Part shown: piece after piece, positions 5,655-46,700 of the stretch
How positions within the stretch are numbered: the first letter of the stretch is position 1
Layout of the letters: every line of letters starts with the position of its first letter
Source: a virus
Virus record (IMG/VR): IMGVR_UViG_3300025141_000075
Span: 1 to 64,000 of that record
Direction: 5' to 3' (one strand)
Length of the DNA: 64,000 nucleotides
The notes under the pieces: model-generated
What the model was told of the DNA's origin: nothing
The model's input: the letters and a program-made list of their open reading frames with translations, nothing else
Database searches by the model: none
Program-made: the position numbers and the translations under genes

Positions 5655-5891
5655 CTAATTTTTTCTACGACGTTTTTCTAACAGTCTCTTTTGCTTAAGT
5701 TCCTGTCTTTTTCTCTCCCTTTCTGCTCTCGCTCGTTTCTCACGTTTTTTTTCAGAAGGTTTTTTATAGTGTCTGCGGTCCTTTACCTCTTCAATGATCC
5801 TTTCTTTTTTACATTTTTTAATAAAACGCCTAATCATTCTTTCGTGATTACCGCGACACTCTTTCGAGTGAACTACTACATTACTACCCAT
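5655..5891 (-). CDS. rpsU: Phage-encoded small ribosomal subunit protein bS21
   Basis: This 78-residue, very basic protein matches bS21 over most of its length. The stretch RMIRRFIKKCKKERIIEEVK aligns with the family core ([22 protein letters not shown] in E. coli, quoted from memory), and the following YKKPSEKKREKRARAERERK corresponds to the conserved YEKPTxxRKR helix. The N-terminal VVVHSKECRGNHE differs from cellular bS21. In bacteria bS21 sits near the anti-Shine-Dalgarno end of 16S rRNA and helps initiation. Phage copies have been described in marine phages and are proposed to bias host ribosomes towards phage messages. It lies between head-assembly and fibre genes, so expression is probably late. 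Start ATG 5891; the previous gene stops at 5893. Confidence 0.88.
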   Translation of the reverse strand: MGSNVVVHSKECRGNHERMIRRFIKKCKKERIIEEVKDRRHYKKPSEKKREKRARAERERKRQELKQKRLLEKRRRKN

Positions 5892-5892
5892 T

Positions 5893-6321
5893 TTATTTCC
5901 TATTCATTTGTTTCCAGATTTGTGAAGCGCCGCCCATAAGAGAGGTGATATCAACTCCAGAACTGCTAGGATCTCCTAAATCAACCGCGCCGGCGTGAGC
6001 TTCTTGCTGCGCAGGAGTGGGTGTTGTCCCTTCAAATAGATCGACACCGTTGTAAGCGTCTGCGCTCACAGCTTCTAGTAACTTCTTTCTATGCTCTTGG
6101 AGCTTCAAGCGACCTTCTTTTTGACTTCGCTTCATTTGCAAGTCTTCATTAAATAGGTGCTCTTCTTGTTTTTTGTTCTCAACAACAACGTTACCTCGTG
6201 TTTGCATACCTTTGGCGACTTCCGAAACAACATTAGACAAGACGCCCTCTTCTATAAGAACTTCGTGAATACATTCTTTCACCAATGGTTTGATTAATCT
6301 TTTTAAGTCAGCTTTTTTCAT
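5893..6321 (-). CDS. Head-assembly candidate with basic N-terminal leader (142 aa)
   Basis: The N-terminus MKKADLKRLIKPLVKECIHE is a lysine-rich amphipathic helix resembling the MKISKSxLKQIIxEE leader of other proteins here, although it is the most divergent copy. A charged coiled-coil-like middle follows (residues ~55-90), then a Gly/Ser/Asp-rich end with DLFEGTTPTPAQQEAHAG and SLMGGASQIWKQMNRK. The ATG at 6321 overlaps the stop of the 593-residue gene upstream (ATGA), with AAGAGGA as Shine-Dalgarno. Its place beside the prohead protease suggests a scaffold, core or internal head protein. No known family was recognised. Confidence 0.72.
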   Translation of the reverse strand: MKKADLKRLIKPLVKECIHEVLIEEGVLSNVVSEVAKGMQTRGNVVVENKKQEEHLFNEDLQMKRSQKEGRLKLQEHRKKLLEAVSADAYNGVDLFEGTTPTPAQQEAHAGAVDLGDPSSSGVDITSLMGGASQIWKQMNRK

Positions 6322-8099
6322 AATATCCTCTTATTAATTCCTGCTAAAGTTTGCCAGCGATCAAGTGTTTCCTGAAGATTTTTCTCGTCTTTGGGCTTTC
6401 TTCTTGTTTGAAATACTTTTTTAAATTCTTTTACATACATTTTCAAATATTTTTGAGATATAGGGGTTACATTTTTTGTTAGAACCAAGCCTGCGATATC
6501 GCTACTCGCTTTGGTGGAGAAGTGGGCTTTCGCTCGGTTAAAAAAGTTTTTTACATTCGCGGGTACAGTAAGACCGTACATGTATTGTCGTGGGGATAAT
6601 TCGTAGGTGCCATTCATGAATGGACGATCATCTGTTGTTTTGACCCATCTGGGTTTTACGCCCTTATCGCCAGTTTCCCTATCTTCAATAGACAACCCTC
6701 CCCCTCGTTCGATCAGGTCTTCTAGATATTCTAGTTGTTTTCTAGCATACTTATAATTGGTCTCCGCGGCGGCGTCGGACGCGAGTACAGTCACAAAAGA
6801 ACTAAGAGCGTTTTCGGGCGTCGGATTTTTTATCCACCGCTCGTTAAACCCATCCCATCCTTGGCCTTCGTACTCGCCTTTCTCGGGCGTGGGCTGCGGC
6901 GTGGGCTGCGGCGTGGGCTGTGCTTCCGGAGCAGGGGCATTTGGGCCCGGTTCGGGAAGATCTGTAGGATCTTGCAACTTAGAAGGGGGTTCACCAGTTT
7001 TTGAGGCTTGAGGCGGAAGCTCATCTGGGGGCAATCCAATATCTGTGTCAGGTTCTTTTGATGGAGCACTGAACTTGACCGTGTTCATTCTGGCCCACTT
7101 GTTTAAAGTCTTTTCTAGTTTTTGTTGAGCCTTGGGTTCTAGTTGAAAAGAACTCACAAGATCATTTAAATCTCTCACCGTATTTGGCGAGAAAGTACGT
7201 GGCTCTCTATCTGGACCCCCAAGCGCTTCCAACACAACGTTGTCCTCTTCTGCTGCTTTTAACATTAGTAAAAGCAAGCGGCCCTTTTCATCTTTGGTTA
7301 AAAAATCAAGAGGCTTGAGCATGTTCAATAAAGAGTCCGGATATGCGTCACTGTTGATCCCGGCAATGATCTTGTCTTGATCATCCGGCTCATCGGACGC
7401 AGCCTTTGAAGCATCGGCTTGAGCTTTTCTTGCCGCTACCTCGTCAGGCGAAAGCTTTCTCCTCTCCGGGTCTACTTCTGGTTCGACGTCCGGTGCCATT
7501 TCTGCCGGCACTGGGGCTGTTTCTAATTCGGGCTCCTCAAGACCAAGAGTATCTAAATCAAAATCACCTAAATCAATCTGTGAAAGTTGCTCTTCGTCGG
7601 ATATGCCTAGGTCTTGGAAATCCAATTCTGGTATGGCTTCAACGGCTATAGGTATATCAATCTCTTTTCCAAGTCGTTTTTCAACAGCGCCAATAAGAGT
7701 TTGTACCCACAGGTTTCCTAGTTCTAATTCAAAGGAAGATGGTGGGCGCCCGAAATCGTCGCCACCGGTGTTCATGCCAAGGTCATTTGAATTGAACAAA
7801 TCAATAAATTCTTCTGTGCCCACTGAGACTGGAACCATTTGTGGGTCTCCGTTTTTGAAAAAATACAACCACTGTGGGGTTATATCCGCTGGCGCCAGAG
7901 ATAGTCTTTTATAAAAAATTAAATCCTCGGGATCCCGATCCGCGACGGCCGCCGCGGTGGCCCAGTCCATAACGCGCTGATCTATCCGTTTTTTGATCTC
8001 TCTTGGAACATTATTGGTCGGAGATCCCGGCTTAAAATCATATTTAGCTTCACTTAAGTGACGGTGCCAACCTTCATGTATAACTTTGTAGTCACTCAC
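6318..8099 (-). CDS. Scaffold-like acidic/proline-rich protein with ENW-type leader (593 aa)
   Basis: Starts at GTG 8099, overlapping the stop of the prohead protease gene. The N-terminus has YKVIHEGWHRHLSEAKYDF (residues 4-22), a variant of the ENWxxFIxE leader seen at 9087-9656 and 18380-19117 and ending in the [I/L]-x-E pattern. Residues ~150-230 are very acidic and Pro-rich; a PTPQPTPQPTP linker follows near residue 400. The C-terminal ~150 residues are basic and helical, ending TLAGINKRIL. Acidic, disordered, helical proteins directly after the prohead protease are often scaffold or core proteins in T4-like phages. That is the leading inference; no family was recognised. Confidence 0.75.
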   Translation of the reverse strand: MSDYKVIHEGWHRHLSEAKYDFKPGSPTNNVPREIKKRIDQRVMDWATAAAVADRDPEDLIFYKRLSLAPADITPQWLYFFKNGDPQMVPVSVGTEEFIDLFNSNDLGMNTGGDDFGRPPSSFELELGNLWVQTLIGAVEKRLGKEIDIPIAVEAIPELDFQDLGISDEEQLSQIDLGDFDLDTLGLEEPELETAPVPAEMAPDVEPEVDPERRKLSPDEVAARKAQADASKAASDEPDDQDKIIAGINSDAYPDSLLNMLKPLDFLTKDEKGRLLLLMLKAAEEDNVVLEALGGPDREPRTFSPNTVRDLNDLVSSFQLEPKAQQKLEKTLNKWARMNTVKFSAPSKEPDTDIGLPPDELPPQASKTGEPPSKLQDPTDLPEPGPNAPAPEAQPTPQPTPQPTPEKGEYEGQGWDGFNERWIKNPTPENALSSFVTVLASDAAAETNYKYARKQLEYLEDLIERGGGLSIEDRETGDKGVKPRWVKTTDDRPFMNGTYELSPRQYMYGLTVPANVKNFFNRAKAHFSTKASSDIAGLVLTKNVTPISQKYLKMYVKEFKKVFQTRRKPKDEKNLQETLDRWQTLAGINKRIL

Positions 8100-18096: not shown

Positions 18097-18383
18097 TACT
18101 TAAGTTTTGCCAGCTTTGAGGCCAAGGCCGGTGTTTCATGCTTAAATTGGGCGATTGAATCCATAATACTTTCTGCGTTTGCGGGACCATTGTACCATTC
18201 AAAGAATATAGATGCCATATTATATTTAATAATCCACTTCTTTTGAATTCCAGCTTCAACACACAAAGCTGTGAATATCTCGGCTACGTCACCAGCATCT
18301 TCCTCTTCCTGTACTACTACAAGTGTGGGAGATACAGAAGTCTTCTTTACTAATTTATTCCAAAGTGTTTTTAATAAATTCAT
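18096..18383 (-). CDS. Unknown small protein coupled to the tubulin cluster (95 aa)
   Basis: Begins MNLLKTLWNKLVKKTSVSPT, then a short strand LVVVQEEEDAGD, and a compact alpha/beta region (EIFTALCVEAGIQKKWIIKY, then FFEWYNGPANAESIMDSIAQF). Its ATG overlaps the stop of the ParB/sulfiredoxin-like gene inside the 26-base junction repeat. No family was recognised. Its coupling to the two upstream genes suggests a role in the same process. Confidence 0.65.
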   Translation of the reverse strand: MNLLKTLWNKLVKKTSVSPTLVVVQEEEDAGDVAEIFTALCVEAGIQKKWIIKYNMASIFFEWYNGPANAESIMDSIAQFKHETPALASKLAKLK

Positions 18384-18404
18384 GTTGCCAATCCATTCAT
18401 GCTT
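18379..18404 (-). repeat. Junction repeat copy 1: shared gene end, RBS and start overlap
   Basis: The coding-strand sequence AAGCATGAATGGATTGGCAA plus CATGAA encodes SMNGLAT-stop of the upstream gene and contains the ATG of the next one. It matches 19113-19138 at 24 of 26 bases. GGA lies eight bases before the start, so the repeat also supplies a weak ribosome binding site. Confidence 0.75.
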
Positions 18405-19117
18405 CTTTTCAGTTCATTTAATGAAAAGTTTTCAAATCTTTCTTCTTTGATGGGCAATTTCCATTTACCGCTACCTGAATTCCAATCAATTTCGCAATAG
18501 CAGGATGTTTGCCCGTTCTCTATAAACTCAACCAATCTGTGTAAGCCGTCTACAACTAAAAACTTTTGTTCTTCCTCGATCCAATTAACTTTAATTGGGG
18601 CTTGCGGGGTTCTGCTTCGTGCCCCTTTCAAGACATTTTGATAAGCAGCAAGAATTCCCTGCTCCGTGTTACCTGTTTCGACAATCAAATGATCAAAGTG
18701 GATCTTAGCTTCGCCGAGGGCGCCCTGTAGCGATTTTAGCACCTGCTGCAGCTGGCCGGCCAAAGCAGACGCCTTGACTGTTGCCTGTTTTACTGCTGCT
18801 GGATTTGCTTTTGCTTGCTGGCCGCCTTTCGCTGCTGGCGACACAGCGGTACTCTCAAAGCCTTGAGGGCCGGAAGCAGCTGCTTTGGCTTTCTTGTCGG
18901 CGGCGACATCGTCGGCGGTTGCAACGTAAGTATTTTTGAAGGGATCTTTTGTCTTTGGTTCAGGTTCGCCGGCTTGCTGTCTTTTAAAGCGTGCAAGCTC
19001 TGCTTTATACTCTTCGGGAGATATGAGGCCCTCATCTGCCATGGCCTTCAGTTGCTTAAGCTCTTGTTCTGTATTTTCTTTTATGTGCTTTCGCCAATTT
19101 TCAAATAGTTTTTTCAT
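18380..19117 (-). CDS. ENW-leader protein with ParB/sulfiredoxin-fold-like C-terminal domain (245 aa)
   Basis: ATG 19117 is chosen because it overlaps the tubulin-like stop (ATGA) and yields the leader MKKLFENWRKHIKENTEQE; upstream in-frame starts would run deep into the tubulin gene. The leader matches ENWxxFIxE. Residues ~20-60 include a short SPEEYKAELARF segment like an SHOCT motif, followed by an Ala/Lys-rich linker. The C-terminal ~110 residues have FDHLIVETGNTEQGILAAYQ, then KFLVVDGLHRLVEFIENGQT and CYCEIDW. The VDGLHRL-type signature is that of ParB/sulfiredoxin-fold domains (DGxHR). The protein ends SMNGLAT, identical to the tubulin-like protein. It might be a DNA- or nucleotide-binding partner of the GTPase, or a packaged enzyme. 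Confidence 0.72.
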   Translation of the reverse strand: MKKLFENWRKHIKENTEQELKQLKAMADEGLISPEEYKAELARFKRQQAGEPEPKTKDPFKNTYVATADDVAADKKAKAAASGPQGFESTAVSPAAKGGQQAKANPAAVKQATVKASALAGQLQQVLKSLQGALGEAKIHFDHLIVETGNTEQGILAAYQNVLKGARSRTPQAPIKVNWIEEEQKFLVVDGLHRLVEFIENGQTSCYCEIDWNSGSGKWKLPIKEERFENFSLNELKRSMNGLAT

Positions 19118-19138
19118 GTTGCTAATCCATTCATACTT
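19113..19138 (-). repeat. Junction repeat copy 2: tubulin gene end and next gene start
   Basis: The coding-strand sequence AAGTATGAATGGATTAGCAA plus CATGAA encodes SMNGLAT-stop of the tubulin-like protein and the ATG of the next gene. Two mismatches to 18379-18404, both silent (AGT/AGC, TTA/TTG). Confidence 0.75.
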
Positions 19139-20256
19139 AGTATCGCAATCAATCCGGGCACATTCTTTCTGACATAAACGCCAGAGAAAAGTGTCTCGCA
19201 TCGGCCGCCGACATAAGCGATTGCCGACTCAATATTCTTGCTGACTTTTGGATCAGCCACCATCTCTTCTGACACAACCAGCACTAACGAGCCTGCAGCA
19301 GCCTTTCCCTTGGGGGGAGGGCATGCAGAACGATTCATGCAGTTATGGAGGATCACCGATCCAAGCTTAGCTGTATTTGGATCTTTTATCATAGTTGAGC
19401 CCAAGAAGGCACGACCGTCATTGCCCAAACATGTTTCCAAATCCTTGCTGTCAAAAGATTGGATCGGTGAATCCTCAGTGGAGAGCTTTAACACTTGGGC
19501 AAGTGACTTAGCAAAAGTTGTGTTGGCGACAGGGTACATGCCAAGCATGCCGATTCTGCCGCGCAGTAAGCGTGTAGCTCGTTCGTTATCAAGAACGATA
19601 TGCGGATGTTTAGCAACGTCATTTGCCAGTGTCAACGCATTACGAGCGATTGTGGGGTTAAGGTTTTCTTGTGCGGTTGGCCATGAGACTATGTAAACGA
19701 CCTTGCCGCTCGACTGCACAGAGCGCATGTAACGCTCAAAGACAGGGTGCAGAGCGGTAACACTACTACCGGTACCGCCACCACCGCCAGCAAGGACGAA
19801 TAGCCAATCAACTTTACCGAGTTTGATGCGGAGGGCATCTTCAACAATTGCACCATTTTGACTTAAAACCTCTTTTCCGTAGTCTACGTTTTTTCCAATC
19901 CCGTCTGAATCGGGGATGAGGACAACGTGATCCTCTTCTACATTCTTTGGAATGTCTTTACCTGTTGAATTTACGAGTAGCGTTTTGTTGAATCCAAGTT
20001 CAATAAACGCATTCGCCATTTTATTGCCTCCACCGCCGACACCAACGAAACCAACATTGATAGATGAGGGTGCTGTGTTCTCGGGGAGTAAATCTTCATC
20101 AGAGTATTCCATCTGTAATCCGAAATCCTCAACCATGCCGAAATCTTCTGCATCTACTTCTTCGTGGTAACTGTCTTTCTCCTGCGCAAACGCGGGAGGT
20201 GGTTCTGCGGGAGGCAGAAAATCAAATTCGTTTTTATCGTCGTTTTCGTCTGACAT
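19114..20256 (-). CDS. FtsZ/tubulin-like GTPase
   Basis: The 380-residue protein has the main tubulin-superfamily motifs. INVGFVGVGGGGNKMANAF (66-84) is the FtsZ-type GGGGN start of the nucleotide domain. AGGGGGTGSS (156-165) is the tubulin signature (T4 loop). IVLDNER (220-226) fits the guanine-contacting IVIPN region of FtsZ. IQSFDSKDLETCL (265-277) aligns with the FtsZ T7 loop NxDFAD, keeping both Asp residues (269 and 272) but with Ser for Asn, and is followed by GRAFLGS like GxAMMGS. An unusual acidic, Pro-rich extension fills residues 1-65, and the long C-terminal tail of cellular FtsZ is absent. It probably polymerises with GTP. Roles could be positioning of DNA or virions, or interference with host division. 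Confidence 0.88.
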   Translation of the reverse strand: MSDENDDKNEFDFLPPAEPPPAFAQEKDSYHEEVDAEDFGMVEDFGLQMEYSDEDLLPENTAPSSINVGFVGVGGGGNKMANAFIELGFNKTLLVNSTGKDIPKNVEEDHVVLIPDSDGIGKNVDYGKEVLSQNGAIVEDALRIKLGKVDWLFVLAGGGGGTGSSVTALHPVFERYMRSVQSSGKVVYIVSWPTAQENLNPTIARNALTLANDVAKHPHIVLDNERATRLLRGRIGMLGMYPVANTTFAKSLAQVLKLSTEDSPIQSFDSKDLETCLGNDGRAFLGSTMIKDPNTAKLGSVILHNCMNRSACPPPKGKAAAGSLVLVVSEEMVADPKVSKNIESAIAYVGGRCETLFSGVYVRKNVPGLIAILSMNGLAT

Positions 20257-20267
20257 TGTTTATTCCT

Positions 20268-20621
20268 TTAAGCTTGATGCTTTCCGTGATGTGGTTTACC
20301 AAGTTCTGCAAAGATCTGAGAAATCTCAATGAAAGCTTCTTTGCCCGGGCGTCCCATATACTTAAGACCGTTCTCAAGTGAACTCGCAATATGATCTACA
20401 CTGAAATATTTCAATGCGTTTTTCATATCTGTGGCAAGTTTCGCCTTATCAACCTCAACATCGTCGTTGTAGAAAGGATCATAAGGCTCTGACATATCCG
20501 GGTACTTCTCTGGTTCGGGCTCTGGTTCGTAAACGCTTTTTCCTGCGGGGGCGTCGAAGTTAATTGCCTCTTTTATCTCTTCCTTAATAATTTGTTTAAG
20601 TTGCGACTTACTAATTTTCAC
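20268..20621 (-). CDS. Small LKQIIKEE-leader protein (117 aa)
   Basis: Starts at GTG 20621 with a perfect AGGAG Shine-Dalgarno. The leader KISKSQLKQIIKEEIKEAI is nearly the same as in 14620-15438, which also uses GTG. A Pro/Glu/Asp-rich linker (PEPEPEKYPDMSEPYDPFYN) follows, then a helical domain (TDMKNALKYFSVDHIASSLE, GRPGKEAFIEISQIFAELGK) ending with a His-rich PHHGKHQA. It lies between the Mre11-Rad50 gene and the tubulin-like gene, 11 bases from the latter. No family was recognised; packaging into the head is suggested by the leader only. Confidence 0.72.
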   Translation of the reverse strand: MKISKSQLKQIIKEEIKEAINFDAPAGKSVYEPEPEPEKYPDMSEPYDPFYNDDVEVDKAKLATDMKNALKYFSVDHIASSLENGLKYMGRPGKEAFIEISQIFAELGKPHHGKHQA

Positions 20622-20632
20622 TTTGTAATCTC

Positions 20633-23600
20633 CTATTGGTTTACTCTTGCGTATCCGTCTTTCTTTTCAATCACGATTTGCATGTCAACACAATCTTTGA
20701 GCGAATCAAGGTGCGAGATCAGCAAAACGTTCTTAAAATACACTTTAATTAGTTCCAAGATCCGAATAAAACCCTCCATATTTTCTTCGTCTAGTGCGGT
20801 ACCCGGCTCATCAAGGATAAACAAGTCGCTTTTAGGCAATGATGAAACACTCAAAAGTGCCAAGCGGATGGCCATGGCGGCCATTGTTTTCTCTGCTCCA
20901 GATGCCATCTCAATTGGGCGCTCGTTATACTGTGGGTGTTTGATGAAGATATCAAATTTATTTCCTGATGTCTCAAAGAAAATTTCGAAATCTACAATAT
21001 TGGCTAATACTTTGGCAATTTCTGAATTAATAACAGGCATTTTCTTTTTGATAATGTCATAAGCAATACCATTGGAGTGCATACAACGCATAAATAAATC
21101 ATAAGCTGAGAACTCTTTTTCCAGCTGAATATACTCTGCTTTTAATTCTTTCAAATTTTCAGATTGTTGTTCAAATGAGCCCACCTTTTTATAGAGACCA
21201 AGGGTCTTATCTGTTTCTATTTTGATACTTTGTCTCACCTTAATAATACTCTGTTCATAATCTTCTTTATTGTTGAGCAGTTTTTCAAGATTTTCAATAG
21301 CTTCTTTGTTTTGCTCATAGGCCATCTTTTTGTCGGTCAAATCAGAAACAGAGTTATTGATCCTCTCAAGAGCGATATTGTTTCTTTCAATACTCATTTT
21401 TAAATCGTTAATCAAAATCTCTGTTTCTTGTTTTTTGTTCTGCAGTTTCTTAAATTTCTCTATGTGATCCGAAACGATTGTGGGAGCCAAGGCAGACAAG
21501 GTCTTCTCTAATTGTACTACTTCGGTTTTCATTTCAGGTATTGTTGCGACTGCAATATGTGCATCTTTTATAAACTTACACGTAGGATATGATGTACCAC
21601 AAGGTATATCATCCAGCAATCGTTCTTTGCTTATTGCGGAATCTAACAAACTTGTAAACTCAGCTAATTTATGGTTAGTCTCGGTGATTTGTGTCTGCTG
21701 TGTAAGCAAAGCATCGTAATCAAGCTGTCCCATAAGAATAGTTATTTTATCATATCGGGCTTTTTCATTTTTGAGAGTTGTTGAGTCTTCAATTATTTTA
21801 TTAGACAATAAATTAATCTGTTTTTGATTCTTTTCTAAAGCACGATAAATATCGAAGATATCAATTGCCTCCGCGGGGATGTCTGAAATTTGTTTGTCAG
21901 CCTCAGCCAAATTTGCTTCTTGCTCTTTTAAAACTTTTTCTTTAGATTTTACAATCTTTTCTTGTTTTAAAATTTGATTTTTACAGTTTTTCAGATTTTT
22001 GAGTGCTTCTTCAATTTCAGCCTCATATTCCCTATCTTCTAATTTTTTAAGATATGCTTTCGCTTCAACTGATTCTTCCTTCGCCAATTTAAACTTTTTA
22101 TCAAAAATCTCTAAGTCTAAAAACTTGGCAATGATTTCCTTACGACGCGTGGAACCTTCGTCGATAAATGCCAGTGAACCATGTTGTGAGGCTAATGATG
22201 ATACGTTGAAATCCTCAATTGTGCCAAAGTGTTTACGTATATTCGCATCCGTGTTATTACGTGTTAAGCCATTTAGAGATGTTGTCTCGCCGGTGGCACA
22301 ATTGTGAACTTCAAAATTTAGCTCAGTCTTAGCTTCTTGTGTTTTCTCCCCCTTCAGCGTCTTAACATATTTCGTGGCTGTTCTTTCAATCATGAAAAGG
22401 TTATCATTAATTTGAATTTCTAATTTGCCGCGGCCGTGATCTTTGTTTTGATTAATTACATTAAGGTTTTTGCGCTCATTCTTAGAGGTTGTATTGAACA
22501 ATGTCCATAAGGCGGCATCTACAACAGAACTTTTGCCTGAGAAGTTTTTGCCAAATATACCAACGATCCCATCCAGTGTATCAAAACAAACATTATTTTC
22601 TTCACCGTAATTAAACAAATTATCAAATTCAAAATTTATCAATTTCCAATTAATGTTGCGAGAGACGTCTTCCTCTTTTTCAATGATCACGTTGTACTTT
22701 CTATTTAATTCATAAACGCTTTCTAATATATCATCTGTAATATGGTAATCCTTCAGATATTCGCTGATCAATTCTTCTTGAACTTTGATATCACGTAGGT
22801 TCTCGGTCTTAAGACCATCTGTTAACTCTTCTACATTGCCACGTTGGCCTGATGCTCTGTTAAGAAACGAAATGCTTTCAGGCTTAAATCTATGTTTAGC
22901 GATATCCACTGCACGTTTCATTACATCTAAAGGCAGGTTGTTATTGCTGACTAGTCGTAAACGTGAACCGGTAGGAACCGCGGTGTTTTTGGGCATGCGG
23001 CCCTTCCGCGTAAGTTCTATTGTAATAAACGCCTTGGGGTTTATAAGAGATACATGACGGGTATCAAAATTGTTTTTGTCTTCTATCTCCCATATCAAAT
23101 AACCTTTGTCGTTGCTTTCACCATGGTTCTGCTGTACTAAACTGCCCGGGTATCTTGCTTTCCCATCATTATCAATCTTTTGATTAGTCTTGTGGATATC
23201 ACCCAAGAGCGCATAGTCGTATTTCTCAAGGGTTTCCATGTCAATATCACCGTGAGTCATCATCCAACCACTGTCGGTGACTGAGCCAACCACAGAGCCA
23301 TGATAAAGGGCGATGTTCGTGCGGTCTTCCGGCAACGTCTCTTGCCAATTTTCTGGATCAACAATAGATAACACATGTAGATCAATTCCGTCAGCAACTT
23401 CAATAACATCTGAATATTTGTGAAAATGAATATTGGGGTGCTTCAGATTATCCACAATAGGGCTTATTGCATCCAGTCTTCCGCTATTCTTAAGGTTCAT
23501 ATCATGATTACCAAGAATTATATGGTATGGTGCGATGTCTGCTAAATTAACAAACAGATCACTCATCATACGAATCGCCTCGGGGCTCAAATCAAGTTTA

Positions 23601-23749
23601 GTGTGAAAGGTGTCACCGGTGTTAACAATAATATCTGGTTTTTCTTCTTTTAGTTTTTCGTAAAGCTGTTCAAATACAGCACGGTATTCCTTATGATACT
23701 TCAATTTTCGGACATGGATATCCGATACATGCGCAATCTTAATGCCCAT
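20633..23749 (-). CDS. Mre11-Rad50 (SbcD-SbcC / T4 gp47-gp46) single-chain fusion
   Basis: The N-terminal ~340 residues are a Mre11/SbcD metallophosphoesterase: SDIH (9-12), GDTFH (45-49), GNHD (80-83), then LYHGSV and LLGDIHK. The remaining ~690 residues are a Rad50/SbcC ATPase: Walker A GIFGKNFSGKSS near 395-405, two long coiled coils around a hook region with CGTSYPTCKF near 715, ABC signature MASGAEKT near 945 and Walker B LFILDEPGTALD near 978. Cellular and T4 versions are two proteins; here both are one 1038-residue chain with no internal stop. The complex resects DNA ends for recombination-dependent replication and can degrade host DNA. The start has AGGAGAG upstream and lies downstream of a sigma70-like promoter. 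Confidence 0.93.
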   Translation of the reverse strand: MGIKIAHVSDIHVRKLKYHKEYRAVFEQLYEKLKEEKPDIIVNTGDTFHTKLDLSPEAIRMMSDLFVNLADIAPYHIILGNHDMNLKNSGRLDAISPIVDNLKHPNIHFHKYSDVIEVADGIDLHVLSIVDPENWQETLPEDRTNIALYHGSVVGSVTDSGWMMTHGDIDMETLEKYDYALLGDIHKTNQKIDNDGKARYPGSLVQQNHGESNDKGYLIWEIEDKNNFDTRHVSLINPKAFITIELTRKGRMPKNTAVPTGSRLRLVSNNNLPLDVMKRAVDIAKHRFKPESISFLNRASGQRGNVEELTDGLKTENLRDIKVQEELISEYLKDYHITDDILESVYELNRKYNVIIEKEEDVSRNINWKLINFEFDNLFNYGEENNVCFDTLDGIVGIFGKNFSGKSSVVDAALWTLFNTTSKNERKNLNVINQNKDHGRGKLEIQINDNLFMIERTATKYVKTLKGEKTQEAKTELNFEVHNCATGETTSLNGLTRNNTDANIRKHFGTIEDFNVSSLASQHGSLAFIDEGSTRRKEIIAKFLDLEIFDKKFKLAKEESVEAKAYLKKLEDREYEAEIEEALKNLKNCKNQILKQEKIVKSKEKVLKEQEANLAEADKQISDIPAEAIDIFDIYRALEKNQKQINLLSNKIIEDSTTLKNEKARYDKITILMGQLDYDALLTQQTQITETNHKLAEFTSLLDSAISKERLLDDIPCGTSYPTCKFIKDAHIAVATIPEMKTEVVQLEKTLSALAPTIVSDHIEKFKKLQNKKQETEILINDLKMSIERNNIALERINNSVSDLTDKKMAYEQNKEAIENLEKLLNNKEDYEQSIIKVRQSIKIETDKTLGLYKKVGSFEQQSENLKELKAEYIQLEKEFSAYDLFMRCMHSNGIAYDIIKKKMPVINSEIAKVLANIVDFEIFFETSGNKFDIFIKHPQYNERPIEMASGAEKTMAAMAIRLALLSVSSLPKSDLFILDEPGTALDEENMEGFIRILELIKVYFKNVLLISHLDSLKDCVDMQIVIEKKDGYARVNQ

Positions 23750-23760
23750 ATACTCTCCTA

Positions 23761-23862
23761 TTAATTAATAGCTTTGAGTAAAAATAGGGTACTGTAATAC
23801 GCGGCGGCCAAAACAGTGGCGTCCAGAAGTGTTTTAAAGATAAAGAAAACAACTTTGTTCAT
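23761..23862 (-). CDS. Predicted 33-residue membrane peptide
   Basis: A short frame from ATG 23862 (MNKVVFFIFKTLLDATVLAA) to TAA at 23761, with a strong GGGAGG Shine-Dalgarno eight bases upstream. It fills the gap between a sigma70-like promoter and the Mre11-Rad50 gene, which begins 12 bases after its stop. Almost the whole peptide could be one or two membrane segments. There is no homologue I can name, so the coding call rests on the ribosome binding site, position and composition. Confidence 0.55.
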   Translation of the reverse strand: MNKVVFFIFKTLLDATVLAAAYYSTLFLLKAIN

Positions 23863-23933: not shown

Positions 23934-24830
23934 TTACTTACCGACGTTTTGGCCGGTAATTTTATTAAACATTTGCATGTAATATTGAGAAGCAGACATG
24001 CCTGCATTTGGAAGTTCAGGATTCACCATATCTAACAAGGGGTAAGATTCGTATCCGAAAGATTCACCCTTACCTTTAAGGAATTTTATACCGCCTTGAG
24101 ATGCCTTTTGCATTTGTGCTTGGTTTCCACCAATTTCGCCTTTACTTACCTTGGCGGGATTAAAATCTGGTAAATCATATAACTGTTTATACTGTTGTGC
24201 ATATTGTTCTTTGGACATATCGGCATCCCTAACTGTGTCAAGATCAATACCCGGCCTTAGTTCTGCCTTGCTGGTTACACCCTTGGCAATTTGGTTTTTA
24301 ATGTCTTTCTGTAATTTCAGCAAAACGCCGTATTCTTGTGAAAACATTTGTGTGCGACCACCATCGTAATCTTGGAAAATAGGGAAGTTTTGCATTTGAG
24401 ATACTCTATCACTAAAATCTTGACCTGCTTCACCACCTACAGAACCCTTGTCTGCATCTGGGCTTATATTCCACATAAAGTTGGCTGATGAACCTAGCAG
24501 GTCATTAACTGATTCTAATGCGTGGCCGGACAGTTGTTTTTCAGCTTCTACGCTAGCTTCTGCAGCCGCGCGTTCAGCAGCTTTAATATCAGATAAATCG
24601 GAACTTCGGTCTCCGAGAACAGCCAACAAACCGCCAACAACTGCTAGGGGGAGTAGACCTTTTTTAATTCTAGAAACCAAGTCGCGGCGGTGTTCCTTTT
24701 TGTATGCTTGCAAGTCTTCATCATTTTCAAGAAGAAATTTATCCAATTCTTCTTCAATTATTTGTTCTAAAAAATTATCAACTATTTCTTCTAAAATAAT
24801 TTGTTTAAGTTTTGACTCTGTGATATTCAT
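23934..24830 (-). CDS. LKQIILEE-leader protein with one membrane segment (298 aa)
   Basis: The N-terminus MNITESKLKQIILEEIVDNF matches the leader family, and the following EQIIEEELDKFLLENDED is a second similar acidic helix. Residues ~55-73 (GLLPLAVVGGLLAVLGDRS) form a hydrophobic segment. The remainder is mixed, with many Gln, Gly and Met residues and repeated MQ/FN patterns (FNKITGQNVGK at the end). It starts just beyond the primase stop, and an ACTATTTA motif sits inside the primase 3' end 29 bases upstream, so it may be expressed late, unlike primase. Candidate internal head or membrane-active protein; no family was recognised. Confidence 0.7.
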   Translation of the reverse strand: MNITESKLKQIILEEIVDNFLEQIIEEELDKFLLENDEDLQAYKKEHRRDLVSRIKKGLLPLAVVGGLLAVLGDRSSDLSDIKAAERAAAEASVEAEKQLSGHALESVNDLLGSSANFMWNISPDADKGSVGGEAGQDFSDRVSQMQNFPIFQDYDGGRTQMFSQEYGVLLKLQKDIKNQIAKGVTSKAELRPGIDLDTVRDADMSKEQYAQQYKQLYDLPDFNPAKVSKGEIGGNQAQMQKASQGGIKFLKGKGESFGYESYPLLDMVNPELPNAGMSASQYYMQMFNKITGQNVGK

Positions 24831-24831
24831 G

Positions 24832-25770
24832 CTATACCGCCGATAGTAAATCTAGCAGTAAATAGTTGTCTCTATCGATAAAGGAGGCTTTATTCTTTCT
24901 TTCAGCAAACACTTCTTTAGGCATTGAGCCTACATCTTCGAACCCAGAAATATCAATCTTGTAAAGTTCAATATCATATCGAAGAAGCATTTCAATAATC
25001 CTCCTCTCTTTGCTGGCTGCATCTGGGTCAAGTGCGACGTAGATTGGGGTGTCATTTCGTACAATCTTTCGTAATAAATCGGACCCGGCGCGTAGGGTTG
25101 AGCCCAATATAGGAACAGCATTTCCGGCGACAAGTGCATCAAAAACTCCCTCGACCAATACTAGGTCTCTATTCCAGTCAATATATAGGTCGTTAAACAC
25201 TATATCCTTGGATGCTCTTGGATTTTTATACTTATAGGAGTCCCCAGTATAGGATCTCGCGATAAAGTAGCTACAATCGCCATCTTCGTCAAAAGATGGA
25301 ATAATGATTCTGTTGCGATATTCGCCGCTAAAACAAAAACCTATCTTCCACTTAATTATGTCTTCTTTTGTAAGTCCTCTTTTGAGTAAATATTTGAGGG
25401 CGTAAGCACCTGTTGCTGGGACTTTGTTTGTGCAGAGTGTTGCGAATTCTTCTGGTAATTGTATTTTCTCACTCCTTGTTTCAGGCTCGTATTCATCAAA
25501 GAGTTCATTAAACTTCTCCAAGTCTGTCCGAACTGTAATTTCGTCCCACCGCTGGAGTTGTGTAAAAGAACCAAAACGCCTAATAACCCGCCTAATATTA
25601 CGACCGCGATAATCACAAACCCAACACTTAAAAGCATTTTTATCCAAATTAATAGAGAATTTACGCTTGTGGTGATTGCACGCAGGACACGTGAAAAGAA
25701 GTTCCTGTCCTTTGTCAATGTTGTTTCCAAACGTTTCATATAATATTCTCTTTGCTTCTTTCTTATTCAT
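24832..25770 (-). CDS. DnaG-type DNA primase, T4 gp61-like
   Basis: The 312-residue protein has an N-terminal zinc-binding domain with CPAC (28-31), nearby histidines, and CWVC (49-52). It has a TOPRIM core with LVEGVFDALVAG near 200-213, ILGSTLRAG, and YVALDPDAASK near 245-255, carrying the catalytic Glu and Asp-x-Asp residues. The domain order and short length fit phage primases lacking the helicase-binding domain of bacterial DnaG. It makes RNA primers for lagging-strand synthesis. No replicative helicase or polymerase is in the window. The gene has its own sigma70-like promoter behind a terminator. The C-terminal end overlaps the signal for the next gene. Confidence 0.9.
   Translation of the reverse strand: MNKKEAKRILYETFGNNIDKGQELLFTCPACNHHKRKFSINLDKNAFKCWVCDYRGRNIRRVIRRFGSFTQLQRWDEITVRTDLEKFNELFDEYEPETRSEKIQLPEEFATLCTNKVPATGAYALKYLLKRGLTKEDIIKWKIGFCFSGEYRNRIIIPSFDEDGDCSYFIARSYTGDSYKYKNPRASKDIVFNDLYIDWNRDLVLVEGVFDALVAGNAVPILGSTLRAGSDLLRKIVRNDTPIYVALDPDAASKERRIIEMLLRYDIELYKIDISGFEDVGSMPKEVFAERKNKASFIDRDNYLLLDLLSAV
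24859..24866 (-). promoter_or_regulatory. ACTATTTA motif inside the primase 3' end
   Basis: ACTATTTACTGC on the coding strand, 29 bases upstream of the leader protein that starts at 24830. It separates a replication gene from a putative virion gene, where a late start would make sense. The role is inferred. Confidence 0.35.
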
Positions 25771-26470: not shown

Positions 26471-26485
26471 AGAGTTATTTGTCAA
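26457..26485 (-). promoter_or_regulatory. Sigma70-like promoter for the FKBP gene
   Basis: Perfect -35 TTGACA (26480-26485) overlapping the stop codon of the RuvC-like gene, a 17-base spacer, and TATCTT (26457-26462) preceded by TGT (extended -10). AGGAGA lies before the FKBP ATG at 26420. Confidence 0.68.
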
Positions 26486-27039
26486 GAACATTCTGTATTA
26501 TAACCGGCTTGAGCTATTATAATAGCATCTGCTCTATCGTAAGATTCTGGCTTGGGGTTTCCATACCTTGTATATTCAATTTTGAAGGCCGGCTCGGTTT
26601 CTAAAAGATGTTCTAATACCACTTGTTTGGCCTTCTGACCGCGGGGGACTTTGATTCCGGCAAGCTTCCTTGCGGACGTGGCACCGATAAATTTGGGCTT
26701 AATTTCAAAAAGTTCATATACAACCCAAGATACAATTCCATTAAACTTTTGTAACGTAGCCATAGTTTTAGCGGAAGATCCACCAGAATTAAAAAACGTA
26801 AAAGGCTGTTCAATATAAATATGTTCAATGGGATATTTAGAATCTCCAAGACCCGCCACATCTTCATTGTTGCATTGGTACATCTCATATAAATCAAGTA
26901 GTTTTTCTTTAATTGTTATTGTTTTCTCAAACACATCTTTGTATTTTCTTAGATCAATTGAATCATAAAAAACCAATTGTCCTTCAGCAACAATAGCAAA
27001 ACCAGTAATACTGGTGCTTATATCAATTCCTAAAATCAT
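26482..27039 (-). CDS. RuvC-like Holliday-junction/RNase H-fold nuclease
   Basis: The 185-residue protein has the RuvC catalytic set: ILGIDISTSITGFAI (Asp6), IYIEQPF (Glu77) and YDRADAIIIAQA (Asp168 and Asp171). The length is close to bacterial RuvC. KLAGIKVPRGQKAKQVV gives a basic DNA-contacting segment. It probably resolves branched DNA before packaging; T4 uses the unrelated gp49 for this. It follows a small HExxH gene by one base and is transcribed with the structural block upstream unless an unseen promoter exists. A crossover-nuclease role other than junction resolution cannot be excluded. Confidence 0.85.
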   Translation of the reverse strand: MILGIDISTSITGFAIVAEGQLVFYDSIDLRKYKDVFEKTITIKEKLLDLYEMYQCNNEDVAGLGDSKYPIEHIYIEQPFTFFNSGGSSAKTMATLQKFNGIVSWVVYELFEIKPKFIGATSARKLAGIKVPRGQKAKQVVLEHLLETEPAFKIEYTRYGNPKPESYDRADAIIIAQAGYNTECS

Positions 27040-40798: not shown

Positions 40799-43700
40799 TT
40801 AGTTGGAGAATCGTAGGGGGGTCCATACGATTCCTCCTGTGCCGCCGCCGGATGGTGGTGGCGGTGGTGGTGGAGCGCCGCCGCCGGATGGTGGTGGCGG
40901 TGGTGGTGGCGGAGAAGAGCCGGGTGGTGGTGGCGGGGCCCCCCCGGGGATAGAAGGAGACATATCTCTAATTGCGGCGGTCGCTGCGGCTTTGGTAGAA
41001 TATACCTGTGGTAATATTTGTGCTTGTTGTTTAATAAGATTCAGCGTATCCACCGGGGGTGATAAGACAGGCGTAGTAGTGGCAGATGAGGCTTGCTCTC
41101 TAATTAAAGATACACCCCTATTTGATTCATCATCAAACAATATTTCAATATCAACCTTAATACCTTCAACAATCGACACAAAGTCGTAAGGCCAGTTATA
41201 TTGAACTTCATATGCTTGCACTGGGGGTTGGGCCGGTTGGGCTTCACCGGGAGCCCCGGATGTGCCGGTTTCTTCCTCAGCAGTGTTGCTTCCTGCTCCT
41301 GTCCCCCAGCCCCCGGGGTTTACCATGCCCGGGACGTCTGCGCCAAGTACAATGCCTTGGCCCGGCCATCGGGATCGGGCGCCGGAGGGACCAACAAATT
41401 GAATGCCTGTGACTTTGCCAAAAGAATCTTTAGCTTGCTCTAATACATGACTGTTATACTCTCCAACGGCTTTTTGTTTGACCTTGAATGCCATAAAACG
41501 TACATCGGGTGTTTCAATCCCTAGGGCCTCACTAGTGCCTAAGAGATGACTAGCGTTCAATAATTCGCTGGTATCTAAGCTGTGTGCGATTGATTGTTCT
41601 TCAAATCTAATTTTCTTATAGTCTGCCGGAGCGAGATTCTGCCAGATGTAAGACAAGTCATTTTTATGGAATTTGTGAGAAAACTCAAAAATATACATTA
41701 CAATTGGTGTAGTTTCAGGATTTCTAATAAAGTCAAACTCTGGTGGTAATATATACTTATCCATCTTAGCAATGAGTTTTCTAATTGATTCTCCAGCAAC
41801 ATCTATATTAGCACCCGTCGCACTTTGGGCATTGGCAGAAATAGCTGCCTGAACCGCAAGCATCGGAATGCCAAAGAACTGTTTAGCAGCGTTTAAAGAC
41901 ACGTCATCGGCCGCTTCAGGGTGTGTTGAAAGCGTCGTATCAAATTCTTTGGTTGTTATATATGGGATTAACACAACCGCTTCTTTTATTGTCCGGGTGG
42001 GCGCGAGTTCGCCAAGTCTTCTCCTTCTATTTATTGGTGTGAAGCCAAGCCGGCTCGTGAGAGATTTAAATTTATTTTTTATTGAATTACCGTTTGATCC
42101 GGGGTCGGAGACAATGCCCGGGTTGCCTTTATTATAAATACTGGCGTCGTTTACCACATTATAGTGATGTGCTAACCAGTTCTTTGGAATATCACCAATT
42201 TCCATAAATATTCCTTTTTTCTTATTAGGTTCAATAATTCCAAATTGGTGCCACATTCCGCGGGGGACTGAGCCAGATCCAAATACTTCCGGTATTGTTA
42301 AAGATCCGGATGCTGCGCTGACTCTGCGATAATTAGAGTTAAAGTTCAGCATCGGGGTCTCGAATTTTGGTTTAATAACCCACCGCATAGCTTTTGTCTC
42401 GTTGCGTGTTTCTTGTAGAAGTTCAAGGGCATCATTAGTCTGGAAGGGTATTCTTTCAATACCAAACATATTTACACTAGCACTCAATTGAACAGCTTGG
42501 TTGTTGATATTTCGTGCACCACCGACGTATGATAAAGAATGACCAGTTGGGCGGCGCACATCATGCATAAATGCTGGCCTTGTATAAGCTGCATTAGAAT
42601 ATTTAATTTCGGGGCCCGGGTCGGCGCGCCAATAAACAGTTTCTGCTCTGGCTAAGATCTCATCGATAGCATATTTTCTAGTTTCATGTGGATAAAATAA
42701 GATGTCGGCCCATGCCTCACCATGATAATAAGGTGGGGTAAATGACCAGTTATATCCATTTACGCAGTCCATTGCACCAGAAAAAGAAGCGCTGATAAAT
42801 TCATCTTCATCCGCGCCGCGGCCGGCCACCGGGGGACCAAAGGCCGTAGGCCTACTGTACATTGTGAATGTTTCGTTCACGCCAGAATTATCGGATGGAT
42901 TAGGATCTTGAGGGAGTGGATATTCGCCGGAGCCAAATCTAGTGCCTTGTTGGTTGGCGGCTGCATCGCCCCCATTTGAACCACTGTTGGCAAGTAATCG
43001 CCTACCACCTGTCTTGCCCAAAGAAGCCGAAGCATTAACATCTGTAACGGTATGGAGACTGGAGTGTCCGCCTGTGCCGGCTTCCAACAACCTATAGCCT
43101 GCATTATCAAAGTCCATCCCGTAGTGTTTTGTTCCGTTCGTGGAGCGGTACATTTTAAGGCGGGCGCCCCATAGGGTACCACTTTGGAAGAAAAGGCCGT
43201 CGCTCGGTATTTCAGCTGATTTCATCTGTGTGAAGTCTCCGCCTCGTAAGAAAAAGTTTGCTGTTTCGCCAAAAAAGTTCCGGGCCGCTAATTTATACGT
43301 GAAGTCGCTGTCAGTCGTTAAAGAGGCTGTGAAAGGTGATGAGGATGAGACTGCCACCTCTAAATCACTTATTTTTTTATTCAGCAAATACTCAGCAGGA
43401 TCTAATAGTGTTTCAAACGGAAGTCTATCATCCCAGAATGGACCCTCAGTCCAACTGGACTCGTCCATTAAACTAACGGTGCCAGCACCAAAGGGTGAAC
43501 CTTGTGATCCGGCATATGCCCTTATAGAGCCACTTCTATTTTTATCTTTCAAAGCATAAATATAATTTGGCTTTGTGGTGGTACCGTACAAGATCGGATG
43601 ATCAACGGCCATACCAGATTTAATACTATTATAAAGGAGCCCGGGATTAAATAAAGGCCCTACTACCGGGCGAATCTGGGCGAATAAATCTTTGTTATAA

Positions 43701-46700
43701 CCAGCGCTGAGGTCGATCTCCTTAGTGATCAGAGGCCCCGTGTTCAGATCGGAGCCCGAATAATATGTTAGCGATGGAAGGATACTATCTTTAAAATCGT
43801 CATAAAATATTGAAACCAAATCAAGTGTGCGCTGGGCAGGGTAGAAACCCTTATAAGGATTGAATTTTTTAACTGCCGCGACGGTGATTCTAATCTCTTT
43901 AGGTGTCATCGTCGTTTTGGCTTTTAAGGCCCGGGCATACATTAGTTTTTCTGAGTTTGTGTAATCCCTGTAGAATGATGAGGTTACTGCCCTCATTGCT
44001 GTTCCGGGGATTTCAAGATAATCCTGAAATTTTGACCAGTGGTTTCTCAATAAATCTGGCACGTGTTGACTCATTCTAAATTCTGGCACAATTGCGTAAT
44101 CTTTTGCCAATACCCGTATATCATCGCGGAAATCTTGGTAATTGTCATACCATGGTTTAGATTTGCGTGAATGAAATACTGGGTGAAGTTTCATATCTAA
44201 TGATCTTGACAACTGAATATAGCCAGCTTGCTCATCAGCCTCCCACAAGGCTTCGCCCGAAAAAGGTTCAACAGTATTAACAATCTCTGGGTTGGCTGCC
44301 ATGTTTGCGACCCCTGTGGAGTCCAGAGACGCTTGAGTTCCTTTTTCCGGGATGGACATACCGGAGGGAGGAACAACAGATCCAATATTTGGTAGCATTT
44401 GTTTTCTTGTATACAAAGCGCCGTTGGAGAGTTGAAATCTCATATCAAGATTGCGGAACGCGAAGGCCAGGGCGGCTTTGATCGCGGACGGTGCACCAGA
44501 ATCAGCCGGCGCTTGTTCAAATTCTGCCAGATCTTGGTCAAAGAAATACTGTGTGTAATTATTCTGTAGTTCTCCCGCTTTTCCGTAAGCGATCAAACTA
44601 TCTTGTGGCGAAATATAGGCGCCCATGCCGGTTAAAGAACCAGTACGAGTCAAGAAATCTTCTTGTGCATCTAAACACCAAGCGCTTTGACTCAGAAGAT
44701 TGTGATGTGTTCCGAGGTTGCCTTCGCGCGTGCCAGCAGAATTAGCAAAAGTGGAGCCCAAAGTAACACGATCCGCTATGAGATCTCTCCAGAACAAGTT
44801 GTCATAATTCGTTCTTCTTCTCGATGATGAAACGAATTCCATGCGTTGTGATGGGAAAATATTTTCTGTATATATCAGGTAATTTGGATCAGCCCAGCCA
44901 ATAGATTCACCATCCATAGTCGCCATAAGATAATCAAAAGGTGTTAATATTTCATGGGGATTTATATCGGTGTAAGTGTTTAAACCATTAGAATTAAAAA
45001 ATATTTTATTATTATTATCTGTCGCCTTTAAAGTAATTGAATTACCTAGAGGTGAGGCACCCATTCCGCATGGGGTCGTTTCTACACTTGGTGTATAATT
45101 AATGATCGTAGGGCGCCCCCTCATTGACACTGGCGGCAACGTGAAATTAGTCATCGCATATGTTCTTTCTTGTCCCGTTATGGTGTGTTCAGGATTCCAA
45201 GTTGGGGGCCACGGTGATAATACCCACGCGCCGCGATAAACATCCCTCATAGCATGGGTTATGACTGAAATTTCACTTGATGATCTTTCGTTACGTAACA
45301 CTGGGTGGTTGGGGTTGCGTCTAAACTGAGCGTGTGTTCCGTATCCATATGGGCCGTTGCGTTTAAGCATCAGGGTGTTAAACATATACCCTTGCATTTG
45401 CCATGAAGTCCAATCACCTTGAGGGCCACCGGAATAAGAACCAGAGGTAGAGCCACGAATAGTTGTGGATGTTGCATCATTTATAAGTGCGCCTTGGCCC
45501 TTATAAGATCTGTTCATGTAATGAGGTGTTTGATCCAGCGTCGTGGATGAAGATGGGAACCAATGACCAGTAGTTCCTTTTGAACGTTCAAATAGTGGAG
45601 TTCCTTTAGGGTATCCCAGCATGTTCGAAGATGCGGTGATGGGTTCATAAATAATTGTGTTGAGGCCAACAAAATCTTGCGGAGTAAAGGATTCTTTTAC
45701 TCTCGTACTATAACTCATAGCCCATTTTTTAGTAGCACCGAATCTTCTGCTGGCGCTGCCACCACCGTTGTATATACCAACTTCACCGCCGCTAATCATC
45801 GTCATCCATGGCTCCCAGCCAGAAGATGCAGAATATCTACCTTGCTGTTCGCCAAATAAAGGCATATACCCAGAGTATCTAAAGTTATGACTGCATGGGT
45901 CTGTGTGTTCCATAGCACCCGTCATCCATGTGTATTGACGATCTCCGCGAGGGATTTGGTGATGCTGATTAAGGTTGTCGTAATGATTTCCACAGGAATA
46001 AGTCATAGAGGAAGAATAACCAAGGACTGCCGGCGTGCAGCCGTCAAGGGGCGCAGGATAATGGCCACCTGCCCCAGCGCCTTCATCAATCACTAATGCT
46101 GTATTTTCTGTGATTGTGGCATACGCCAAGGGGAATAAATGATTTCCTGCTGTATGTGAATTCCATATAGCGTTTGAAGATGAATTAAAAGCTTTGGGAT
46201 TACTTTTGTCAATAGCATCTGTTTGGTTGCCATCTCCAAGTTTGTACCAAGCAAATAAATGTGACCCGCTAGCACCATATACTGAAGATGCTGTAATATC
46301 ACAAGGGATTCCACTATTATATAATGCTGTAACTTCAGAAGCGCTTAGTGCAACGGCCCATAGAGATATCTGGTCCATGGCACCGGTGTGGTTTTGAGTC
46401 CCGATGGATGTTCTAGAACAATCTGTTCCAAAACCCATTACCGAATCACTGTCTCTCGGGACCGCACTCAAGACAGAATATGAACTATCAATTTTTTGAT
46501 CGAAGTATTCACGTGGGGATGTGTTCTCTACAACTATCTGCGATTCTCCGTTAAAATATATTGATGGGAAACTGGGGCCATTGACTCCAGCAGAGACAGG
46601 CAGCGATACTGCAACATGTACCCAACTTCCGTTGTTTAAATTGGCAGCTTGACCTATCGTTCCCGTGGTTGAAACCAGATATTTAGCGCGAGTATGGCTT

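Follow-up and report, generated by a model that had tools for sequence, protein, structure and literature searches.

A natural single-chain Mre11-Rad50 fusion in a group of large uncultivated phages

Results

The fused gene and its domains

The window analysed here is a stretch of 64,000 nucleotides from a virus record of 64,930 bp, and its minus strand carries at 20633..23749 the coding sequence of a single-chain Mre11-Rad50 fusion of 1038 amino acids, read from an ATG at 23749 down to 20633 (TAG stop included), with no internal stop in the translation. Pfam places Metallophos at residues 3-186 (7.9e-14) and SMC_N at 376-1013 (4.4e-10; 39.8 bits for a cut-off of 40), and PHROG gives the SbcD-like phrog_100 at 1-472 (9.3e-33) and the SbcC-like phrog_77 at 302-1037 (8.6e-53). 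Since these two profiles span 967 and 989 positions, i.e., approximately the length of the fusion, the PHROG clusters themselves seem to hold fused members already. Both coordinates and content agree with the original prediction of one uninterrupted frame carrying all Mre11 motifs followed by all Rad50 motifs.

Motif conservation was scored on an alignment of 68 fusion sequences. All five phosphoesterase motifs can be found in the Mre11 half, namely DIH (10-12), GDTFH (45-49), GNHD (80-83), H150 and GDIH (183-186), and D10, H12, D46, H49, N81, H82, D83, H150, D184 and H186 are invariant; the sole departure is in motif V, where the first His of GHxH is replaced with Asp (GDIHK). The five Rad50/SbcC ATPase motifs are also complete, i.e., Walker A (GKNFSGKSS), the Q-loop (Q522), the signature (SGAEK, 950-954), Walker B (LDEP, 979-982) and the H-loop (SH, 1012-1013), split by a long coiled coil (547-918) and with G400-K401-N402, K406, Q522, S950-G951, E953-K954, D980-E981-P982 and S1012-H1013 invariant in the same 68 sequences. 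The CXXC zinc hook is absent from the window protein, which has CX6C instead (C717, C724), and therefore the family assignment is based on ATPase and nuclease and leaves the hook aside.

The full-length AlphaFold2 model, with the family alignment as input, has a pLDDT of 74.5 and a pTM of 0.39, so that we used its predicted domain folds, the relative arrangement of the domains not being usable. Residues 1-300 (22850..23749) form the predicted Mre11/SbcD phosphoesterase and capping domain according to Pfam Metallophos and structure alignment, where the fold with its capping domain was matched by 5dny_C (Z 19.7, 271 aligned residues, rmsd 4.2) and 7dog_A, which contains nuclease plus capping domain (Z 19.6, 272 aligned residues, rmsd 4.0). 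The aligned stretch of the Mre11/SbcD structures extends to residue 297-300, and the human Mre11 chain 9q9j_E can be aligned as far as residue 360. Helices predicted at 321-335 and 339-359 (in the same model of pTM 0.39) occupy the slot of the Rad50-binding helix-loop-helix of Mre11 (residues 321-359, 22673..22789), and are followed by a junction linker, delimited by alignment and model (residues 360-367, 22649..22672), with conserved R364-N365. The Rad50/SbcC part consists of the N-terminal ATPase lobe with Walker A and Q-loop (residues 368-546, 22112..22648, structure alignment), the antiparallel coiled coil (547-918, 20996..22111, helix prediction) with the zinc-hook tip C717-G-T-S-Y-P-T-C724 (21578..21601, sequence alignment), and the C-terminal lobe with signature, Walker B and H-loop (919-1038, 20636..20995, from Pfam, motifs and structure alignment), all of these features being on the minus strand. 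When Rad50/SbcC chains from the PDB are aligned, their own residue 1 or so falls on model residue 366-368 and the alignment runs to 1038 (Z approx. 18). Neither subunit appears to have lost anything at the join, because the Mre11 structures cover 1-300, Rad50 is covered from about its residue 1, and a helix pair with a linker of about eight residues lies between. A sequence search of the PDB revealed no solved structure of a natural Mre11-Rad50 fusion.

Gene neighbourhood

Directly upstream on the same strand, separated from the fusion start by an 11-nt gap, is a hydrophobic ORF for a predicted membrane mini-protein of 33 aa (23761..23862, minus). Short hydrophobic ORFs ending at most 25 nt upstream were found at 20 of 70 fusion starts and at 8 of 531 other gene starts of the same loci (Fisher p 2e-14, which is overstated since the loci are related). 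Further upstream, also on the minus strand, are a DnaG-type primase (24832..25770, Pfam and PHROG), present in 42 of the 43 relatives whose upstream flank is 3 kb or longer, and a RuvC-like Holliday-junction resolvase (26482..27039, PHROG), which is upstream of the fusion in 39 loci. Downstream are a tubulin/FtsZ-like gene and T4-type terminase and portal genes. An end-processing role in recombination-dependent replication is established for T4 gp46/gp47, and by analogy the neighbourhood fits such a nuclease.

Loci, copy number and junction

A protein-to-DNA scan of IMG/VR gave 376 stretches encoding a relative of the fusion, and nearly all of the best 80 span residue 1-4 to 1036-1038, with 51-95% identity. 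When 84 loci, including the window's own record (L084), were read for ORFs, both halves were in a single frame at 82; one exception is a contig edge that removes the first 88 residues (L075), and the other is a 484-kb phage (L002, LR756508) with a copy interrupted by an inserted ORF. In the isolated Microcystis phage Mel-JY01 the whole fusion is a single annotated CDS. Copy number was sampled in 12 IMG/VR records (six of them 185-203 kb, the records being possibly incomplete), in which there is exactly one phrog_77 and one phrog_100 place per record, both inside the fusion, and PHROG profiles found no separate gp46/gp47-like copies. In the large group of approx. 200-kb uncultivated phages examined, the fusion is fixed and neither half has another copy.

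In LR756508, the stretch at 5665-6582 with a 305-aa ORF splits the fusion gene shortly past the GDIHKRQ active-site motif and is possibly a mobile element, intron- or intein-like. A group I intron was sought in this copy, without an Rfam match up to E = 1, save one far under the gathering score.

Residues R364, N365 and W368, located at the first strand of Rad50, are invariant in the aligned family. The R-N-x-x-W motif is common also to the most distant fusions, those of Mel-JY01 (TRNSVW) and a 735-kb phage (TRNIIW), which are overall about 28-30% identical to the window protein. Since this motif is maintained across such distant sequences, it suggests that the joined state itself is under selection.

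Phylogeny of the two halves

For the trees, each half of the fusion was set against the unfused subunits of T4, Proteus phage phiP4-3, three cyano/pelagiphage relatives, Caulobacter phage Cr30, two SPO1-like phages, a T5-like Vibrio phage, Rhizobium phage RHEph10, Moorella phage MTATph1 and E. coli. All 14 sampled phage fusions are on one side of a single branch (100/99 for the Mre11 half, 100/97 for the Rad50 heads) and the T4-like phages are a separate group on both trees. Support for the deep order of branching is weak, there are several long branches, and BLAST matches to the window protein supplied most of the taxa. Within these limits the trees support one origin for the sampled phage fusions, and the half-by-half comparison with T4-like gp46/gp47 proposed in the original prediction puts the fusion outside the T4 lineage on both half-trees. 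The 2011 study described the other Mre11/Rad50 fusions as scattered and recurrently created (PMC3175470). Joining the two genes needs little, because in split relatives they are often adjacent or overlapping.

Zinc-hook switching

Hook tips fall into two discrete types: IPCGxxxPxC (CX6C) is present in 61 of 81 sequences, window included, and YDPxCxxC (CX2C) is at the same place in 19, with one further odd variant; CX6C of the fusion type was not seen among the split relatives sampled. On a tree built without hook columns (L004-L083 and the window), 10 changes of hook type are needed, 8 of which are forced by well-supported branches. Sister pairs of differing hook type are mostly 80-100% identical in the Mre11 half and heads, while the distal coil round the hook tip falls to an identity of roughly 20-70%; in pairs of the same hook type the coil is also fast-evolving, with a usually less steep drop at the tip. 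From this pattern it looks as if the hook segment has been exchanged between relatives.

Discussion

The best explanation overall, which we regard as highly probable, is that a single polypeptide from this locus constitutes a complete DNA-end-processing nuclease of the Mre11-Rad50 (SbcD-SbcC) type, most likely acting as a homodimeric MR nuclease in recombination-dependent replication and DNA-end processing. The viral structure search, which was led by giant-virus proteins of similar length, was counted in favour of this reading. The MR complex is ordinarily 2:2, and we infer that two fused chains would pair via their Mre11 domains, ATP-sandwiched Rad50 heads and zinc hooks, keeping that composition in a homodimer. 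The helix-loop-helix of Mre11 would most likely dock at the base of the coiled coil of a Rad50, with the short linker passing straight into the first strand of Rad50. The nuclease would then probably resect and cut DNA ends of both phage and host in recombination-dependent replication, adjoined in its gene cluster by the primase and the RuvC-like resolvase. Metal binding may differ from that of cellular Mre11, because an Asp replaces the His in motif V and the hook is CX6C.

It had been predicted that a fusion fixes the stoichiometry and constrains the geometry. For the former little is changed, as a dimer of fused chains has the same 2:2 content; for the latter there is no obvious strain, since helices are kept in the position of the Rad50-binding domain of Mre11 and a short linker precedes Rad50 residue 1, and since the gap in the T. 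maritima complex, which the published domain order fits, was estimated at about 28 Angstrom, a distance that a linker of 9-12 residues can bridge (PMC3175470).

As an alternative, the fused frame could be an assembly or sequencing artefact that deleted a stop and start between two genes; a single indel might be sufficient, because the genes abut or overlap in related split phages (e.g., Proteus phage phiP4-3 and Vibrio phage PG07) and in E. coli sbcD-sbcC. Yet the common frame occurs at 82 of 84 loci on independent contigs, the junction is conserved family-wide with R364, N365 and W368 invariant, and the annotated isolate Mel-JY01 has one CDS, so that sequencing error or a missed frameshift, raised at the junction by the original prediction itself, is ruled out, an artefact of any kind is vanishingly improbable, and the natural single-chain Mre11-Rad50 is borne out. 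The chain could also be made fused and then cleaved, or a Rad50-only product could arise by internal initiation, in which case an ordinary four-chain complex would do the work. Linker residues 363-365, with pLDDT under 50, are indeed among the least ordered points between the halves, but a separately started Rad50 is disfavoured because, between residues 300 and 419, the 81 sequences share no start codon that is preceded by a ribosome-binding-like sequence, and R-N-x-x-W is kept in distant fusions; we consider this outcome unlikely.

A persisting single chain might still have shifted from MR repair to another job, i.e., anti-phage defence or structural end-tethering without nuclease activity, as hinted by the Asp in place of a metal-binding His in motif V and by the unusual, variable hook tip. 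We find this very unlikely, considering that Mimivirus R555 has the same Asp (PMC3175470), every other metal ligand is invariant, and these phages have no MR copy besides the fusion, which lies among replication genes. The MR nuclease in one chain can also be taken a step further, with the hook tip as an exchangeable specificity element and the mini membrane protein perhaps anchoring the homodimer to the membrane, which is an improbable extension; if true, abundant phages of one lineage would be swapping IPCGxxxPxC and YDPxCxxC between proteins that are much alike elsewhere, perhaps as a guard against cross-pairing of co-infecting relatives.

Natural fusions of this kind are known. Yoshida, Claverie and Ogata in 2011 reported Mimivirus R555 together with twelve further Mre11/Rad50 fusions, an Asp in R555 replacing His206 of P. 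furiosus Mre11, and an abundance of R555 homologs in aquatic, virus-fraction metagenomes, on scaffolds also with phage primases (PMC3175470). The window fusion shares with R555 and the GOS/BIOME homologs an N-terminal Mre11 and a C-terminal Rad50 in one virus-borne chain and a short linker that the known complex can accommodate, with R555 the Asp at the His206 position (D184 here, invariant in 68 sequences), and with the GOS/BIOME metagenomic homologs the adjoining phage primase genes. R555, set beside it by published description, has 1351 aa and belongs to a giant eukaryotic virus, whereas the window fusion has 1038 aa and belongs to a tailed phage with a T4-type portal. Because of the same order, same Asp, similar linker and same primase neighbour, the window protein can be considered a phage member of the R555 kind of fusions.

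Among named phages, the "AAA domain containing protein" of Mel-JY01 (PP395634, WWT39521.1) is a full-length fusion with 30% identity over the whole chain, it has the GDIHK motif V and a primase two genes upstream, and the Mel-JY01 portal is among the closest named portals to that of the window (40%); unlike the window, it has a CX2C hook and lacks the upstream hydrophobic mini-ORF. A fusion has also been published for Bacillus phage 0305phi8-36. The top structural matches over nearly the full chain were Tupanvirus A0A6N1NVE8 and Tenacibaculum phage pT24 A0A1B4XWF0 (Foldseek, BFVD), which because of this coverage are probably fused too, although the BFVD matches from giant viruses and large phages are only 14-22% identical, are mostly of 1,200-1,400 residues and have low TM-scores, as expected because of the long coil.

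T4 gp47/gp46 have the same two activities in the order 47 before 46, but as two proteins with a GHFH motif V and a CPTC hook, and on either tree their halves fall into a different group from the fusions. Just upstream, T4 has 47.1 (46 aa), a small gene for a predicted membrane protein, which occupies the same slot as the 33-aa mini-protein of the window and which, by a suggestion cited in a paper on phage SPN3US, anchors the T4 protein to the membrane (PMC5105663). E. coli SbcD/SbcC have the same domains, and the sbcD stop overlaps the sbcC start, but the subunits are separate, SbcC alone has 1048 aa, and the motifs are GHIH and CPLC.

The core claim (natural fusions, compatibility with the complex and aquatic abundance) is not new, as it was published in 2011 (PMC3175470). 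New here are the single clade for 14 phage fusions apart from T4, the shared junction motif, the lack of a conserved internal start, and also the hook switching and the upstream mini-protein, although later papers on the hook variants or on this phage clade may have been missed. The interest of the fusion is its fixation across a large phage group with the hook and mini-protein patterns. It gives R555-like fusions of aquatic metagenomes a genome context, i.e., full-length, single-copy, junction-conserved genes in tailed phages of approx. 200 kb whose packaging genes are of T4 type. Because its two halves cannot come apart, a natural single-chain MR of about the length of SbcC alone would lend itself well to structural and single-molecule studies, and the hook switching is a natural experiment on the requirements of the Rad50 hook.

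Other observations at the locus

Bacterial genome contigs gave three matches for a possible host. One is a WOR-3 MAG chromosome (L087, CP070664.1) with a fragment of the fusion phage group flanked by runs of N, which is probably a scaffolding chimera; the remaining two, both short contigs from MAGs, could be mis-binned, and for these reasons no host is claimed.

The tubulin/FtsZ-like GTPase of the window (19114-20256; PF00091, 4.3e-8) is conserved in 49 related loci and had no tblastn match among 50,697 named phage records. The genes flanking the fusion (23934-24830 and 20268-20621) start with the same kind of leader (MNITESKLKQIILEE... and MKISKSQLKQIIKEE...), which is also found on seemingly unrelated upstream-slot proteins of many relatives and is perhaps a capsid-targeting leader. 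Two neighbouring genes both end in ...MNGLAT (18380-18403 and 19114-19137), and near the baseplate-type genes there are very long ORFs of 4034 and 2170 aa (40799-52903 and 56664-63176).
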